A stretch of 7,680 bases of DNA from Phycisphaerae bacterium (GTDB lineage: Bacteria; Planctomycetota; Phycisphaerae; Sedimentisphaerales; Anaerohalosphaeraceae): the NCBI GenBank assembly GCA_021736615.1, contig JAIPFN010000009.1:1-7680 (forward strand), written 5' to 3'. The translations under genes were made by a program, and so were the position numbers. The notes below the pieces were generated by a model, which worked only from the letters and a program-made list of their open reading frames with translations, was not told the origin of the DNA and searched no databases. This document shows positions 1 through 6,739 of this stretch, piece after piece (within the stretch, counting starts at the first letter, position 1; every line of letters begins with the position of its first letter).

Positions 1-341
1 AATCGGAGCTTTCTAAGCAAGTGAGTATGGGGACCAGCTCAATTAACGGTATTATCGACCGACTTGAAAAAAAGCAGTTAGTGATCCGACAAAGAGACAC
101 AAAAGACCGGGCACGGGTATTTGTTACGATAACAGATGCCGGAAAAGAGAGAACCCAATCCGCCCCCTCGCTGCTGCAGGAACGTTTTTCAGATGCCCTG
201 CGTAGCTTGCCGGAACTTGAACAGGCGGCTATCGCATTGTCACTGGAGCGGGTGGTTGAATTGATGGAAGCGCAACACCTGGACACCTCGCCTAATCTCA
301 TACCTAATTCTCAAATTGACGACAAGGGAGAACAAAACTAA
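1..341 (+). CDS. MarR-family transcriptional regulator (C-terminal part, 5' end outside window)
   Basis: The reading frame is open from base 3 with no stop up to the left edge, so the gene starts outside the window; the in-frame GTG at 21 is only an internal codon. The visible part begins in the DNA-binding domain. The stretch [20 protein letters not shown] is the recognition helix and following turn typical of MarR, and [19 protein letters not shown] is the charged wing strand. It ends in a dimerisation helix ([20 protein letters not shown]) and a short polar tail. MarR proteins are dimeric repressors or activators, often of their own operon, that respond to small ligands or stress. The stop codon overlaps the ablA start by one base (TAATG), so it is co-transcribed with the osmolyte genes and probably controls them. 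That role is inferred; the ligand and operator cannot be seen because the promoter lies off the window. Confidence 0.87.
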
Positions 342-1666
342 TGACTATTAAAACGATTCGACACTTAAGTAAAAATCAAAAACATATTATTGAAACGATA
401 GATATCGCCACAACAACGGCTCATTGGCGTGACTGGAAATGGCAAATGAAGCATTGTATCCGAGACCTGGATACGTTTCAAAAGCTACTGGGAGTCGAAC
501 TGCCTGAGAAAACGCAGGAAGCGTTTAAGCAAACCGTTAAAAAATTCCCGATGTCTATCACACCATACTATCTATCCTTAATGGATACCGAAAATATTGA
601 AAATGACCCCGTGTTTAAACAGTCATTTCCATCACCGTTGGAACTGGTCCTATCAAAGTCTGATATGCTAGACCCATTGCATGAAGACAAAGACAGTCCG
701 ATTCCCGGGTTAATGCATCGATATCCGGACAGGGTGTTGCTTATGGTCAGCAATAAGTGCTCTATGTATTGCCGGCATTGTACGCGAAAAAGGCAGGTGG
801 GCGATGTTGATTCTATTTCAAACAAAAGTCAGATCTCTAAGGGCATTGAATACATAAGGAAAACACCTCAAGTACGCGACGTGCTCTTGAGCGGCGGTGA
901 TCCTTTTTTGCTTTCTGATGAAAGACTGGATTGGATCCTCTCTGAACTTCGCAGCATTGAACACGTTGAGATCATTAGAATTGGAACGCGTACACCTGCC
1001 GTGTTGCCGTATCGTATTACCAATGACCTTGTTGACATACTCAAAAAGTATCACCCACTTTGGATCAATACACATTTTAATCATCCGCGAGAACTAACCC
1101 ATTCATCAAGGCAGGCGTTGGCTAAGTTGGCCGATGCGGGAATTCCACTGGGGAACCAATCGGTCTTGTTGGCAGGAATTAACGACTGCCCAAGAATAAT
1201 GAGATCGCTGGTCCATAAACTGGCCAGTAACAGGGTCAGGCCTTATTATCTTTACCAGTGCGACCTGTCTCAAGGGCTTTCGCATTTCCGCACCCCCGTG
1301 GGAAAAGGCATCGAAATCCTTGAAAGCCTGATTGGCCACACAAGCGGCTTCTGTGTACCGACCTATGTTATTGATGCGCCGGGAGGCGGCGGTAAAATCC
1401 CTGTCATGCCAAACTATCTGATCTCATGGTCAACGAATAAAGTGGTGCTGAGAAACTATGAAGGTGTGATCACCACCTACAAAGAGCCGGACTCTTACGA
1501 ACCGATCTTCTGTGACCGCAACTGTGACGATTGCGACCTTCAACTTGGGCTGGATGATGCCGATGAACGCCGGTCGCTTGGTATCGAGCGATTACTTTCA
1601 GATTACAACAAAACAATTTCGCTTGTACCGGCATCCAATGTAAGACATGACCGTAGAGACGATTAA
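341..1666 (+). CDS. ablA: L-lysine 2,3-aminomutase (radical SAM, PLP-dependent)
   Basis: Converts L-lysine to L-beta-lysine, the first step of N6-acetyl-beta-lysine synthesis, using a [4Fe-4S] cluster, S-adenosylmethionine and pyridoxal phosphate in the cytoplasm. The radical-SAM motif is C140-x3-C144-x2-C147 (CSMYCRHC). The PLP lysine is K352 in DAPGGGGK. D308 (in QCDLS) and D345 (in DAPGGGG) are spaced exactly as D293 and D330 of the clostridial enzyme, which bind the substrate side-chain amino group; this favours lysine over glutamate as substrate. C283 and the cluster C391/C395/C398 correspond to the structural zinc region. The length of 441 residues is normal for KamA and too long for EpmB, the EF-P modifying relative of about 340. 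The ATG at 341 is preceded by an AAGGGAG ribosome site about 10 bases upstream. It is second in the operon, and its partner ablB lies three genes downstream. Confidence 0.94.
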
Positions 1667-1675
1667 GGCATTTTT

Positions 1676-2581
1676 ATGGAAGATTTTTTCACAACAAGAG
1701 TAATAATATATTATTTTTCTGCTATAGTTGCTTTAGCTTTACTCGGAGGTATCGTTCTGCGCGGACGTTTGATTTTTCTTGAAAAAATCAGAAAAAAACG
1801 TCTTTCAAAGGTTAAAAGTGAGGACTTGTTGGCTTCACCTATTGACAAAGATGGTGATTACACCAAAATAAAACAGCAGAGCCTAAACAGTCTTGAAAAA
1901 AGATTTAGCATAACAAGGCGAGCTCTTTATTTGATACTTATTCCCACAGCTCTCTTCATCGCTTTGATACCTGTTATAGGAAAAATTTCTCCGACAATTA
2001 TTCCTGTCATCATTGCCTGCAGTTCTGTTATTCTCGGCATTGCTGCTAAGCCATTAATTGAAAATTTTATGTGTGGCCTGGTCCTTTGTTTTGGAAAACT
2101 TGCCCGAATAGGTGATATTGTATTAGTCGATAACGAATATGGTACGATTGAAGATGTCACTCTGACACACTGTATAATAAGACGCTGGGACTGGCTGAGG
2201 TATGTTGTCCCCAATTCATCAATGATGACCAAAGAGTTTGTAAATTATTCTTTACGAGACAATTATAGATGGGTTTATGTTGAATTCTGGGTTGATTACA
2301 GTGCCGATATGGTGATGGTCGAGAAAATTTCAAAGTCATGCCCCATTACAAGCGAGTACTATTCTGGCAAAGAAGATTCGGAATTTTGGATCGTCGAACT
2401 TACTCCTCAATCCGCTAAATGCATGGTGGTAGCGTGGGCAACATCGCCAGCAGAAGGCTGGATGCTGAGCATTGATATGAGGAAAAATCTTTTGCTTGAA
2501 TTTAAAAAACACGGCATACAAACCCACCTGCAAAATATCACATTTCATAATAAGGCAAAGGGCCAAAGAACAGGAGCGTAA
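1676..2581 (+). CDS. MscS-family small-conductance mechanosensitive ion channel
   Basis: Inner-membrane channel expected to open under membrane tension and release solutes on hypo-osmotic shock. The 301 residues hold three hydrophobic segments, roughly 9-28, 83-102 and 107-125, the last leading into the pore-lining helix ([20 protein letters not shown]). The cytoplasmic beta domain follows: RIGDIVLV from R144, then [18 protein letters not shown] and VVPNSSM (P179-N180), the usual MscS order of GD, G-x-V/I-x-x-I and hPN motifs. A mixed alpha/beta C-terminal region completes it. A charged stretch between TM1 and TM2 (about residues 30-80) is longer than the short loop of E. coli MscS. The gene starts 9 bases after ablA, with a TAAGG ribosome site that overlaps the ablA stop. 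Its position inside an osmolyte operon suggests release of N6-acetyl-beta-lysine; that role is inferred, while the fold assignment rests on sequence. Confidence 0.87.
2572..2576 (+). promoter_or_regulatory. Ribosome binding site that decides the TTG start of the symporter
   Basis: AGGAG lies in the last codons of the mscS-like gene, 7 bases before TTG at 2584. The next in-frame ATG (2620) falls inside the first membrane helix and has no such site, so the TTG start is preferred. Confidence 0.75.
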
Positions 2582-2583
2582 CT

Positions 2584-4053
2584 TTGGCATTTGTTGATTA
2601 TTTAATATTCAGTTTATACATGGCCTGCGTTCTGGCTGTAGGTTTTTATTATTTTTTCAAGAACAAAACCACCGAAGATTATTATGTAGGCAGCAGGTCT
2701 ATTAAGGCTTCACACGTTGGCCTGTCTATTGTGGCTACCGATGTTGGCGGGGGGTTCTCTATCGGCCTGGGCGGCGTTGGCTTTATGATGGGACTTGCCG
2801 GCAGTTGGCTTTTGTTTACCGGGCTTGTGGGCGCATGGCTGACCGCCGTTTTTATTATTCCTAAGATTAAACGCATCGACGCAAAACATAAGTTTTTAAC
2901 TTATCCTGATTTTTTAAGGTATCGGTATAATGGCAAGGTGGCATTTGTTGCCGCCCTGATCTCTGGCATGGGCTACCTTGGATTTACGGGCGCCCAATTA
3001 CTGGCCGGGGCCAAACTGGCATCGGCGACCATTATTAAGGACAATCCGTTTGAAATGGACCCCATCACATTTGCCTTGTTGGCAATTGGGATCATTACGG
3101 TTCTCTATACTGTTTTTGGCGGGCTAAAGGCCGTCATATATACCGATACCATCCAATGGGCCTTATTGCTTGGCGGATTGATTTTCGTCACGATACCGGC
3201 AACGCTCATTAAGATCGGTGGCTTTTCAGCCCTCAGGGAGAACTTACCCGCCGAGTTTTTTTCGCTCAGGAATATCTCAACCGTAACATTTATCAACTGG
3301 ATGGTAACCATTATTCCGATCTGGTTGATCGGCATGACGCTTTACCAGAGGATGTATGCATGCAAAGATGAAAAAGAAGCAAAAAAAGCCTGGTACATTG
3401 CCGGTTTTTTTGAGTACCCCATCATGGCATTTACGGGCGTTTTTCTCGGTATGTGTGCTCGCGTCGTTTTCCCGGATGCCGAAGCGGAGATGGCACTTCC
3501 GATGCTGATCAATGACGTCTTGCCCGCAGGGATCACTGGACTTGTCATTGCCACTTATTTCTCCGCTATCATGTCAACGGCCGACAGTTGCCTGATGGCC
3601 TCTTCAGGCAATTTTGTAAATGATATTATCGAACGTTATTTTTTCAAAAACATGTCTGCCAGGGCTTCTATTCGGCTCTCAATGATTGCGACGTTCATGA
3701 TCGGTGCATTGGCCGTTCTTTTAGCGGCCCAGTTTGATACGGTGCTTAAAGCAATTCTTTACGCCTATGCTTTTATGGTATCTGGGTTGTTCATTCCCAC
3801 CCTTGGAGCCTATTTCTGGAAAAACGCAAGTTCCGCCGGCGCCCTGGCCGGGATGTTAACCAGGGGCATTCTGACACTTCTACTACTAACTAATACTTTA
3901 ACGCTGCCAGCGTGTATCGCAAAATATGAACTTGATGCCAGTGTGTTTGGCATCCTCGCTTCGGTGATAAGTTTTATCAGCGTGTCTATATTTTGGCCTG
4001 ATAACACGGGCAACTGTACATTATTCTCTATCGAGGAGGAGCGGGCGTGCTAG
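2584..4053 (+). CDS. Sodium:solute symporter (SSS family)
   Basis: Polytopic inner-membrane protein of 489 residues with about 13 hydrophobic helices, predicted to couple inward sodium flow to uptake of an organic solute. It opens in the family manner: a first helix (about 6-25), then [13 protein letters not shown], the SSS D-Y-x-x-G-R signature, then [17 protein letters not shown] in the broken helix that lines the substrate and sodium sites. M330-S331-T332-A333-D334-S335 is the conserved STADS stretch of the later sodium-site helix, followed by NFVNDII. The TTG start at 2584 keeps the complete first helix and has a good ribosome site. The gene begins 2 bases after the mscS-like gene and its last 7 bases overlap ablB. 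The substrate is not determined by sequence. Because of the neighbours, N6-acetyl-beta-lysine, beta-lysine, lysine or another compatible solute are the candidates. Confidence 0.9.
4034..4039 (+). promoter_or_regulatory. Consensus ribosome binding site for ablB GTG start
   Basis: A perfect AGGAGG sits inside the symporter coding region, 7 bases before the GTG at 4047. It supports the non-ATG start and suggests translational coupling across the 7-base overlap. Confidence 0.8.
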
Positions 4054-4901
4054 AAAGCCGGAAAAAACAGGATAAAATCGAATTGTTTCACGATGCATTA
4101 ATTCAGCATGGCCCCTTGAGCAATAGAATTTATTTAATGAAGCTGAATAAGGCAAGTCCGGTACCACTCATCGAAGCGATTAAAAAGCTTGCGGAATCGA
4201 ATCGCTATACCAAAATATTTGCGAAAGTGCCGGCTCAGCACGCTGAGTTTTTTATCCAGTCCGGATACGAGCAGGAAGCGGCGATTCCAGACCTTTACGA
4301 CGGCCAGGAAGACGCTATCTTCTTAGGCCATTTCCTGGACCCCGAAAGACAAAAAGAAACATCTTTGCTGGAACTTGAAAATATTATCGATTTAGCTCAA
4401 CAAAAAAGAGGAAGCGATACTCACCCCGGGGCTTTAACCCATGGCGCGATTCTTAGATGTTGCGTTCCGGATGATGCGGTGAGAATGAGTAAAATTTACA
4501 AAGAAGTTTTCCCGTCATATCCATTTCCAATTGATGACCCTCACTATTTAATTGACACCATGGCGGAACAGGTTGTATATTTTGGCGTAGAAATTAATAA
4601 TGAGCTTGTCGCTTTATCCTCCGCTGAAATGGATACGGTATCAAAGAATGTCGAAATGACTGATTTTGCCACATTGCCTAAATTTAGAAGCAAAAGTTAT
4701 GCCAGCCGACTTCTAAGGTTTATGGAAAATGAAATGAGGGCTCGCGGGATCCAGACCGCTTATACGATCGCAAGAGCCATTTCACCCGGGATGAATATTA
4801 CGTTCGGAAAAGCAGGGTATACTTACGGCGGCAGACTGATAAATAATACCAATATCGCTGGACAAATCGAAAACATGAATGTTTGGCACAAATTTTTATA
4901 G
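4047..4901 (+). CDS. ablB: Beta-lysine N6-acetyltransferase (GNAT family)
   Basis: Predicted to transfer acetyl from acetyl-CoA to the side-chain amino group of beta-lysine, giving N6-acetyl-beta-lysine, a compatible solute known from methanogenic archaea and some bacteria. The 284 residues match the usual AblB length: an N-terminal alpha/beta region (about 1-130, including [16 protein letters not shown] and [14 protein letters not shown]), then a GNAT fold from about 132. The core strand MTDFATLP (M204-P211) leads into the acetyl-CoA loop, here RSKSYA (R214-A219). The end, [14 protein letters not shown] and MNVWHKFL, fits the family. Both glycines of the common GNAT R-x-x-G-x-G/A loop are serine or missing (S215, S217), which is unusual. 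GTG at 4047 is chosen because of the consensus ribosome site. The identification rests jointly on protein pattern and the shared operon with ablA. It is the last gene of the operon. Confidence 0.9.
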
Positions 4902-4944: not shown

Positions 4945-5011
4945 CGAAGTCCAGATTAAAACTCTACTCATATTTTCACATTAAGGTTCACGTACGGTTA
5001 TTTGAGAACAT

Positions 5012-5055
5012 AAAAAAAGCTCAATACAAGGCGAAAAACCTGAATATTGAGCTTT
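5012..5055 (-). terminator. Rho-independent terminator of the displaced tRNA fragment
   Basis: Read on the minus strand, AAAGCTCAATA and TATTGAGCTTT pair over 11 bp (5045-5055 with 5016-5026), followed by a run of T (complement of A5012-A5018). It is the duplicate of the terminator that serves the intact tRNA. It could still stop transcripts coming leftward from the Fic segment. Confidence 0.75.
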
Positions 5056-5063
5056 AAAGTAAC

Positions 5064-5118
5064 TGCCCGGGACTGGAGTCGAACCAGCACTGCCTTGCGA
5101 CAACTAGCCCCTCAAGCT
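5064..5118 (-). pseudogene. tRNA-Leu(GAG) 3' fragment
   Basis: 55 bases identical to the 3' part of the intact tRNA at 6656-6739: discriminator, 3' acceptor strand, T arm (GGTTCGACT), variable arm, anticodon loop TTGAGGG and three bases of the 5' side of the anticodon stem. The D arm and 5' acceptor strand are absent; what follows (CCTGAACGGTCC on the plus strand) is unrelated. It cannot form a tRNA and is best explained as an attachment-site remnant. Confidence 0.9.
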
Positions 5119-5322
5119 CCTGAACGGTCCGCCCATAAGTAAAAAAACCACTTTTTTAGGGCAACAGAGGGGTTAAATTTTTTTGAAAAAGTCAGAAAAT
5201 ACCATATTTTGCCATACCTCGGAGTGGATTTTCACATTTTTTTCACAGTAAAGTAGGCACCAATCAGAAAACACTTCTTTTCGCGTCAAAATGGCATTTT
5301 TGGGTGAAGTCGGGAATATACC
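5119..5322. other. AT-rich leader of the inserted segment, no gene recognised
   Basis: No convincing coding region, RNA gene or transposon end is visible here. There is a 7-bp AT-only inverted repeat (TAAAAAA / TTTTTTA, 5140-5158, loop ACCAC) and several poly-T and poly-A tracts. The sequence differs from both flanking gene blocks and looks like an accessory-region spacer. Confidence 0.6.
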
Positions 5323-5436
5323 GATCTGTTTAAGGCATCGACATATTATTGGAACATGTCGAAGAAATCGTAAAACATCGACATATTCTATTGATATGTT
5401 TATGGCATCGACATATAATAGCCGATATGTTTATGA
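5323..5436. repeat. Operator-like repeat array upstream of fic
   Basis: CATCGACATAT occurs at 5336, 5376 and 5406. GATATGTTTATG occurs at 5393 and 5424, with a diverged version (GATCTGTTTAAGG) at 5323. The last two full units, 5376-5405 and 5406-5436, are near-identical tandem units of 30 and 31 bp. Each unit is partly palindromic: CGACAT/ATGTCG (5339-5344 with 5356-5361), ACATAT/ATATGT (5381-5386 with 5394-5399) and ACATAT/ATATGT (5411-5416 with 5425-5430). The array overlaps the predicted fic promoter, as expected for binding sites of a dimeric regulator. The binding protein is unknown; the winged helix at the Fic C-terminus is one candidate. Confidence 0.75.
5391..5419 (+). promoter_or_regulatory. 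Predicted sigma-70 promoter of fic
   Basis: TTGATA (5391-5396) and a perfect TATAAT (5414-5419) are separated by exactly 17 bases, giving a predicted transcript start near 5426 and a leader of about 50 bases before fic. The -35 lies in one operator-like unit and the -10 overlaps the ACATAT arm of the next, so a protein on the array would block polymerase. Confidence 0.7.
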
Positions 5437-5474
5437 AATGAGAAATATTAAACATATACTAGAGTTAATTAAAT

Positions 5475-6587
5475 ATGACGTATAACAGGCCTGGGCCATA
5501 TAATGATTTACCGCTTTTGCCACCCAAAGTGGACATCGAAAGCAAGCAAATACTAAAAAGATGTATTACCGCAAGGAGCAGTCTAGCTGCCTTGAAACAG
5601 GCAGCGGAACTTATCCCAAATCCAACCGTTTTGATTAATACAATTCCTCTACTTGAAGCAAAGGTCAGTTCGGAAATCGAGAACATAGTGACCACGACAG
5701 ATAAGCTATTTCAATTTGCATCGGGTAATGCCCAAAATGCAGACCACGCCACAAAAGAAACCTTGCGATATAGACAAGCCCTGTATCAGGGATATCAATC
5801 AATCCGCCAAAGACCTGTCTGCACTTCTGTAGCGATTGATGTTTGCAGGACTATTCGAGATATTCAAGTTGATGTCCGTAAAGTGCCTGGCACAGCATTA
5901 GCAAATGACAGGACTGGTGAGGTAATATACACTCCCCCGACAGGAGAAGGGATTATTCGCGATAAGCTTGCTAACTGGGAGAAATTTGTAAATGAGAACA
6001 AGGATATCGACCCGCTGATTCGAATGGCAATTATGCATTATCAATTTGAAGCAATACATCCATTCACTGATGGCAATGGCAGGACTGGGCGTATTCTCAA
6101 TTTACTATTACTCATTCAAGAAGGGTTGCTTGACATACCAGTTCTGTATCTTAGCAGGTATTTTATAAATAACAAAAATCAATACTACGCTCTCTTAAGA
6201 GGCGTCACGGAAAATGAAAATTGGCAGGGCTGGATTTTATATGTTTTAGATGCTGTTGCAGAAACTGCTCAGTGGACTACAAACAAAATTAAAACTGCTC
6301 AGGAATTGCTGCTGCATACCTGTGACTACATAAACCAGAAATCACCAAAGGTCTATTCACGTGAACTGGTAGAGACTATTTTTGAACAGCCGTATTGCAG
6401 AATTTCTAATATCGTTGATAAAGGAATAGCCAAAAGACAGACCGCATCTACCTATCTCAAAAAACTCGTCGAGATAAATGTACTCAAAGAAATGGATGCT
6501 GGCAGAGAGAAAATTTATATTAATCCAAAATTCTTTATGTTGCTGACCCAGGATGAAAATTCCTATGAACCTTTTTCATTGAGATAA
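5475..6587 (+). CDS. fic: Fic-family protein AMP-transferase (AMPylator) with C-terminal winged helix
   Basis: Fic enzymes transfer AMP from ATP to hydroxyl side chains of target proteins. The 370 residues show the three-part SoFic-like layout. The N-terminal domain begins YNDLPLLPPKVDIES and carries an inhibitory helix with S65-S-E-I-E69-N70, matching [S/T]xxxE[G/N]; the glutamate is expected to block ATP binding, making this a class II, self-inhibited Fic. The core has the flap TGEVIYTPP and the catalytic motif HPFTDGNGRTGR with H195. A winged helix follows at about 294-355 (ISNIVDKGIAKRQTASTYLKKLVE). ATG at 5475 is preferred: an in-frame stop lies just upstream (5466-5468), and the start gives the conserved N-terminus, although the ribosome site is weak (AGAG). 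The gene is alone in its segment, with no separate antitoxin. The target is unknown; stress, toxin-like or phage-related roles are possible. Confidence 0.93.
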   Translation: MTYNRPGPYNDLPLLPPKVDIESKQILKRCITARSSLAALKQAAELIPNPTVLINTIPLLEAKVSSEIENIVTTTDKLFQFASGNAQNADHATKETLRYRQALYQGYQSIRQRPVCTSVAIDVCRTIRDIQVDVRKVPGTALANDRTGEVIYTPPTGEGIIRDKLANWEKFVNENKDIDPLIRMAIMHYQFEAIHPFTDGNGRTGRILNLLLLIQEGLLDIPVLYLSRYFINNKNQYYALLRGVTENENWQGWILYVLDAVAETAQWTTNKIKTAQELLLHTCDYINQKSPKVYSRELVETIFEQPYCRISNIVDKGIAKRQTASTYLKKLVEINVLKEMDAGREKIYINPKFFMLLTQDENSYEPFSLR

Positions 6588-6596
6588 ATTGTATTC

Positions 6597-6710
6597 GAAC
6601 ATAAAAAAAGCTCAATACCAGGCGAAAAACCTGAATATTGAGCTTTTAAAGTAACTGCCCGGGACTGGAGTCGAACCAGCACTGCCTTGCGACAACTAGC
6701 CCCTCAAGCT
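6597..6710. repeat. Right copy of 114-bp direct repeat, fused to the tRNA 5' half
   Basis: Matches 5006-5118 with one substitution and one inserted T. Identity ends at AGCT (6710), inside the anticodon stem of the intact tRNA-Leu. Under the integration model this 3' half was supplied by the incoming element and keeps the tRNA and its terminator functional. Confidence 0.93.
6603..6647 (-). terminator. Rho-independent terminator of tRNA-Leu, possibly shared with fic
   Basis: On the minus strand AAAGCTCAATA (6636-6646) pairs with TATTGAGCTTT (6607-6617), with an inner CAGG/CCTG pairing in the loop, then seven T (complement of 6603-6609). It begins about 10 bases after the tRNA 3' end. On the plus strand the same hairpin ends in only TTTT, so it may also weakly stop fic transcripts arriving from the left. 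Confidence 0.82.
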
Positions 6711-6739
6711 AGCGCGTCTACCAATTCCGCCACCCGGGC
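6656..6739 (-). tRNA. tRNA-Leu, anticodon GAG
   Basis: 84 bases fold as a class II tRNA. The acceptor is GCCCGGG paired with CCCGGGC, with discriminator A. The D loop contains AATTGGTAGACGC, the anticodon stem is CTAGC/GCTAG around TTGAGGG (anticodon at 6703-6705), the variable arm is long (TTGTCGCAAG) and the T arm carries GGTTCGACT. The CCA end is not encoded; the next bases are GTT. GAG reads CUC and CUU leucine codons. The 3' half from the anticodon stem onward is duplicated at 5064-5118. Confidence 0.96.

Follow-up and report, generated by a model that had tools for sequence, protein, structure and literature searches.

A SoFic gene between two tRNA-Leu(GAG) 3' halves: a probable integrase-less defence islet in a Phycisphaerae bacterium

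How does a single gene come to lie between two near-identical copies of the end of a tRNA gene, with no integrase beside it? The question is posed by the window analyzed here, a lone contig of 7680 bases from a Phycisphaerae bacterium, in which a MarR-like fragment, ablA, an MscS-type channel, a sodium:solute symporter, ablB, a repeat-bounded unit with fic, tRNA-Leu(GAG), and fabF follow one another. The first-pass annotation, made from the letters alone, had read the fic unit as a candidate mini-island formed at the tRNA by site-specific recombination, either a cassette mobilised in trans or a stripped-down defence or toxin island. The named best-scoring relatives of the Fic protein include Anaerohalosphaera lusitana (69%), and those of AblB include Phycisphaerae, Sedimentisphaerales, and Limihaloglobus; further Fic relatives, at 80-89% identity, come from metagenome contigs (P0122-P0125). 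The genes ablA and ablB are N-acetyl-beta-lysine osmolyte genes; at 341-4901 the mechanosensitive channel and the symporter separate the two, and the whole looks like one operon.

The only tRNA of the window is a complete tRNA-Leu(GAG) on the minus strand, running from 6739 to 6656 (ARAGORN, with Rfam concurring). Its bases 30-84 fall within the right copy of a direct repeat (6597-6710, 114 bp), whose left copy occupies 5006-5118 (113 bp), both in minus-strand orientation. The copies align over 114 columns at 98.2% (E 2e-51), and the gapped alignment leaves one substitution and one single-base indel between them, neither in the tRNA part. Each holds bases 30-84 of the tRNA, a hairpin 3' of the tRNA, and six bases past the T-run. 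The repeat thus starts at tRNA base 30, within the 5' strand of the anticodon stem (28-32/40-44, assigned by reading of the sequence). Folding gives the hairpin an outer stem of 12 bp and a U-run on the tRNA strand; a simple terminator scan omits it, so calling it a terminator relies on how sequence and fold are read. The left copy provides no working tRNA, yet all 55 of its tRNA bases are unchanged, and this identity of the repeats suggests that the insertion was recent.

The copies are spaced at about 1.6 kb and enclose an interior of 1478 bp (5119-6596) with one convincing gene, fic (5475-6587, plus strand, 370 aa). No integrase was found among the seven larger ORFs of the window that were scanned against Pfam, and by the same scan the attachment-like flanking repeats bound a unit free of recombination or transfer genes. 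Of the features by which islands are recognized, a direct repeat of the tRNA 3' part that bounds the unit and a tRNA that stays complete are both present; an integrase gene within the element is absent from these ORFs. The G+C content of the interior is 38.6%, against 38.4-53.2% in the neighboring genes, and its base composition gives no clear sign of foreignness. The repeat around fic, the lone gene without an integrase, and the tRNA regenerated on one side are accordingly borne out as the first-pass annotation had them.

Which of the two tRNA ends is the older can be asked of relatives. A query made of the left half, the hairpin, and the outer flank was run against 161 genomes of the order and matched 50 of them at E 1e-9 or better; among the matches listed, only those in G093, G199, and G812 pass through the hairpin, beyond query base 66. 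In G093 the sequence after the tRNA-Leu(GAG) hairpin aligns with the outer flank of the window (5005-4953, minus strand) and not with the downstream of the right copy, local scores being 195 for the joined flanks versus 143 for the filled arrangement, or 191 versus 139 with other query ends. The corresponding scores in G199 are 171 and 152, with a match that extends into the outer flank; those in G812 are 173 and 157, with a match that stops soon after the hairpin and says little. A second match in G812 was considered as a second filled site and rejected, being a separate gene, tRNA-Leu(TAG). Since the hairpin of G093 and G199 runs into outer-flank-like sequence, the site also exists without fic, and the original tRNA end, now displaced, is best seen in the left copy. 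The right copy would then be the one brought in by insertion, a polarity taken from the flanks of the relatives.

A fic-less equivalent of the empty site that the first-pass annotation had asked for among relatives is therefore at hand, in other species rather than other strains, and without the expected ablB, which was found in no tRNA locus tested. A single-sequence ablB scan of genome contigs gave 33 pattern matches, none of them confirmed, and a scan with a 32-row alignment gave 296 confirmed, of which 80 were kept. The closest of these (L001, 75%) has no tRNA on its 15.7 kb and lacks the downstream order of the window, and no tRNA lies near ablB in the 11 of the 80 loci that were scanned. 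On the other side, fabF lies directly upstream of tRNA-Leu(GAG) in six of seven such loci of the G002 family (13 genomes), and at E 1e-8 it was not found in the tRNA loci examined in the G001 family, nor in G199 and G812.

The position of the breakpoint has a counterpart in G086, where a prophage (L128 3839-12800) is flanked by a full tRNA-Leu(GAG) and, about 8.9 kb away, by a tRNA 3' half whose first base is base 30, the same as in the window. The prophage encodes a tyrosine integrase (PF00589, 108 bits), a P22-type coat protein, a head-completion protein, and a scaffold-like protein, the last below the Pfam cut-off. The breakpoint at base 30 is thus a site used by a tyrosine-integrase element, as had been supposed from its place in the anticodon stem, and one relative does have an integrase beside tRNA-Leu. 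Some integrases prefer anticodon sites. Unlike those of the window, the G086 halves differ in the variable arm and T-arm, and their repeat has no shared hairpin beyond the tRNA.

Further tRNA halves that start at base 29-31 occur in G021 and G006, and one half lies at a contig end in G074. A strict lone-half pattern found 10 matches, in nine of 397 genomes of the class; one of them is by eye a real tRNA half (in G006, with a T-arm), and the reversed control gave more hits than the pattern itself. The pattern allows neither a C at base 28 nor a mismatch, and the halves of G086 and G021 would therefore escape it. The exact tRNA-half and hairpin patterns of the window each had zero matches in viral contigs. 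When integrases were sought in six relatives, two of the 83 matches listed were on a tRNA-Leu(GAG) contig, both in G086 and one of them the prophage integrase, so an integrase does not generally adjoin such halves. The other tRNA halves have none on the same contig, several of those contigs being short.

We consider it probable that the unit is a tRNA-bracketed defence islet, formed by recombination of a DNA circle with the tRNA-Leu gene of the host, at the anticodon-stem site. The circle would have carried the 3' half of tRNA-Leu(GAG), its hairpin, and the fic unit; upon recombination the incoming 3' half would have completed the tRNA, and the original 3' half with its hairpin would have been displaced to 5006-5118 beside ablB. 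The agent in the window was presumably a tyrosine recombinase, which may have acted in trans or been lost later; either course is plausible. Against this reading count the lack of an integrase among the ORFs scanned, the G086 repeat without a hairpin, the small share (two of 83) of listed integrase matches on tRNA-Leu(GAG) contigs, the single half that the strict pattern gave, the lack of a clear signal from base composition, and a different duplication at this tRNA in G094.

Three other histories have to be weighed against this one. The best survivor, which we still think unlikely, is a segmental duplication, whereby illegitimate recombination copied the tRNA 3' half, the hairpin, and some flank, and fic entered separately between hairpin and flank, with no site-specific recombinase involved. 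That the repeat takes in more than the tRNA end would suit it, as would a locus in G094 (L175 1905-3492) in which fabF and a full tRNA-Leu(GAG) are followed 1.5 kb on by a second copy that starts at base 8, its first seven bases missing, and has two changes relative to the first, counted by eye. A single secreted-type gene, weakly dockerin-like and below the cut-off, lies between these copies; the second copy looks duplicated and decayed, and seems to fit such a history at least as well. Moreover, the inner segment of the window carries a tRNA-flank-like motif, TGTGAAAAAAATGTGAAA (5247-5230, minus strand): in G093 and G199 motifs like it directly follow the tRNA-Leu(GAG) hairpin, in G812 the tRNA-Leu(TAG) hairpin, and one lies near tRNA-His in G004. 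The G053 copy has no tRNA on its 1.6-kb locus, three copies at two mismatches occur in G029, G030, and G032 (one locus checked, no tRNA), and four weaker copies in G092, G093, and G004 have no tRNA. The inner segment may derive from a donor's tRNA flank, fic having been placed between hairpin and motif before the move. As a double TGTGAAAA motif it is seen in the window (5230-5247), at L176 8820, L239 8112, and L238 2837, and in L195; in the relatives it follows tRNA-Leu hairpins (GAG, TAG) or lies by tRNA-His, some further copies having no tRNA nearby.

Three observations speak against duplication. The break at base 30 equals that of the integrase-bearing prophage in G086. The sequence before the left copy is unlike a tRNA 5' half, its score of 12 being reached by 963 of 2000 shuffles, although a very diverged remnant would escape this comparison; an old tandem tRNA pair, which had been named as a refuting case, would thus have left no recognizable 5' half. 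Finally, likeness between the inner and outer flanks is confined to the TGTGAAAAAAATGTGAAA motif, while the hairpins are nearly identical.

Less probable again, and in our view very unlikely, is homologous recombination, with a circle or linear fragment that carried the tRNA half and hairpin entering by RecA in the manner of Campbell and no integrase taking part. A shared stretch of 113 bp that includes the hairpin, and so exceeds the tRNA part alone, is in its favor; however, the first base of the stretch is the very one that the G086 prophage uses, and in known bacteria RecA is inefficient on homology as short as 113 bp. An assembly chimera, in which a metagenome contig wrongly combines alleles or loci that share the tRNA half, is the least likely of all: the window is a lone contig of 7680 bases whose repeats are near-identical, so the joins at these depend on the assembly, but the left junction fuses non-repeat DNA to a truncated tRNA, so that a truncated copy must exist somewhere, and the outer sides look like one locus, fabF lying as in most loci of the G002 family and the outer flank resembling that of G093 and G199.

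The cargo of the proposed islet agrees with the earlier guess of a defence gene. The Fic protein scores 609 bits against the NCBIfam SoFic equivalog NF046030.1 (cut-off 550), and the PADLOC SoFic model recognizes it as well (4.9e-121). Its residues 7-368 can be aligned with solved structures of SoFic, one of which is titled a Fic-domain transcriptional regulator. Aligned with solved SoFic, it retains HPFTDGNGRTGR, which we take to be the Fic active-site motif, and SSEIEN, presumably the N-terminal inhibitory motif. On this sequence evidence the gene is a SoFic protein adenylyltransferase, a known single-gene anti-phage system. PMC12249575 describes SoFic as a class 2 Fic protein that defends against phage by AMPylation and abortive infection; the window protein shares the family match from end to end and the class with an N-terminal inhibitory helix. 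As described for SoFic, it would be an AMPylating toxin restrained in healthy cells and released on infection, and in this host, too, it would probably act against phage. A 47-residue antitoxin, AS1, is encoded downstream of SoFic in one E. coli strain (PMC12249575); in contrast, no AS1-like small gene fits downstream of the window fic, because only 10 bp separate its stop from the repeat, and the window gene is bracketed by tRNA-Leu repeats.

Upstream of fic, at 5323-5433 on the plus strand, lies an array of repeated half-sites (TCGACATAT, ATGTCGA, GATATGTTTA) that overlaps a promoter-like TTGATA-17-TATAAT at 5391-5419. Counting CGACA[TC] or [AG]TGTCG within 300 bp on one side of fic, we find at least three half-sites in 13 of 15 SoFic loci, the window included, where the rest of each locus has 0.13-0.94 per 300 bp. 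The exceptions are L203, with two, and L209, with none; L183 (44% identity) was left out of the 15 and has no half-sites. Dinucleotide shuffles of the richer side, done for 12 of the 15 loci, reached the observed count in 0 of 1000 for seven and in 3-20 of 1000 for the other five. Copies on alphaproteobacterial plasmids (L215-L219, hand-picked from the first 20 hits) have 4-6 half-sites upstream in five of five cases, and among eight more distant Fic loci (26-44% identity, L183 included; 450-bp flanks) one reaches three sites, the others having two at most. Arrays thus accompany SoFic in L182, L196, L204-L208, L210-L214, and L215-L219, in Planctomycetota and on alphaproteobacterial plasmids, mostly upstream and in L196, L211, L213, and L214 downstream of the gene. 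Array and gene thus go together although the neighborhoods differ, and from the sequence we infer that the array is a candidate operator through which SoFic would control itself via its C-terminal domain.

If array and gene go together, do they also travel together? It is possible, if on balance doubtful, that SoFic and the palindromic array make up a self-contained defence cassette, whose tRNA-Leu 3' half and hairpin would let it borrow integrases from phages with the same tRNA target, so that it would spread among Planctomycetota without harm to the tRNA gene. No tRNA was found by ARAGORN beside 15 other fic loci (L182, L183, L196, L203-L214; most with ~1.5 kb flanks). A search of viral contigs for SoFic gave three stretches, one of them a relative at 51%, with no tRNA on its 11.4 kb. 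In G088 a related fic with the array sits between hsdM- and hsdS-type restriction genes. On plasmids of Agrobacterium vitis and Roseibium (L216, L218), SoFic immediately precedes a recombinase-family gene, the two overlapping by 4 bp, and on the Agrobacterium vitis plasmid a site-specific integrase also lies upstream of SoFic.

Leaving the cassette aside, the unit is best read as an integrase-less islet at a site used by tyrosine-integrase elements. Its kind is already known from integrase-less elements flanked by tmRNA or tRNA repeats (PMC3146451, PMC10872708), which weakens the earlier remark that single-gene tRNA islands without an integrase are unusual. In Dehalococcoides, PMC3146451 describes 15 ssrA islands without an integration module as cis-mobilizable elements, proposed to have moved with their neighbors or in trans. 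Like the window unit, they are bounded by an RNA gene and a repeat of its 3' end and hold cargo with no recombinase of their own; in contrast, they target tmRNA with a repeat of 20 bp, and integrase-bearing islands, which use a serine recombinase, stand in tandem (PMC3146451), whereas the window has tRNA-Leu, a 113-bp repeat that includes a hairpin, one gene, and no neighbor island. The G086 prophage shares tRNA-Leu(GAG), the breakpoint at base 30, and a tRNA complete on one side, and differs in its own integrase and phage head genes, its size, and a repeat that ends with the tRNA.

A tRNA also stands at the border of the tycheposons and of the Methylophilaceae tRNA-Lys-repeat additive island, the latter with recurring copies of the last 20 bp of the tRNA gene (PMC10872708); tycheposons, however, span 4-200 kb and carry xerD (PMC10872708), and with its 1478-bp interior and no recombinase among the seven ORFs scanned against Pfam the window unit was not classed as one. 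Helper-dependent hitcher elements, among them MITEs and CALINs, likewise consist of cargo or DNA sites without a recombinase, but rely on transposase or integron integrase sites (PMC11389934). Among the paper titles listed by literature searches none dealt with a single-SoFic tRNA islet, which is weak evidence. The window unit is a very small new case of integrase-less islands, and unusual in its size, the hairpin inside its repeat, its single SoFic cargo, and the array that accompanies SoFic in most loci.

With one promoter, one defence gene, and one tRNA half with its hairpin, the unit is near the smallest that a tRNA-bracketed island could be. The regulation of SoFic is described as unresolved in PMC12249575, and the array offers a concrete candidate control element for a toxic defence protein. 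If the integrase of a resident prophage can excise or insert the unit, it would show how single defence genes move without a mobility gene of their own; and if the cassette reading were true, SoFic would here be a one-gene defence element riding on the integration machinery of its enemy.
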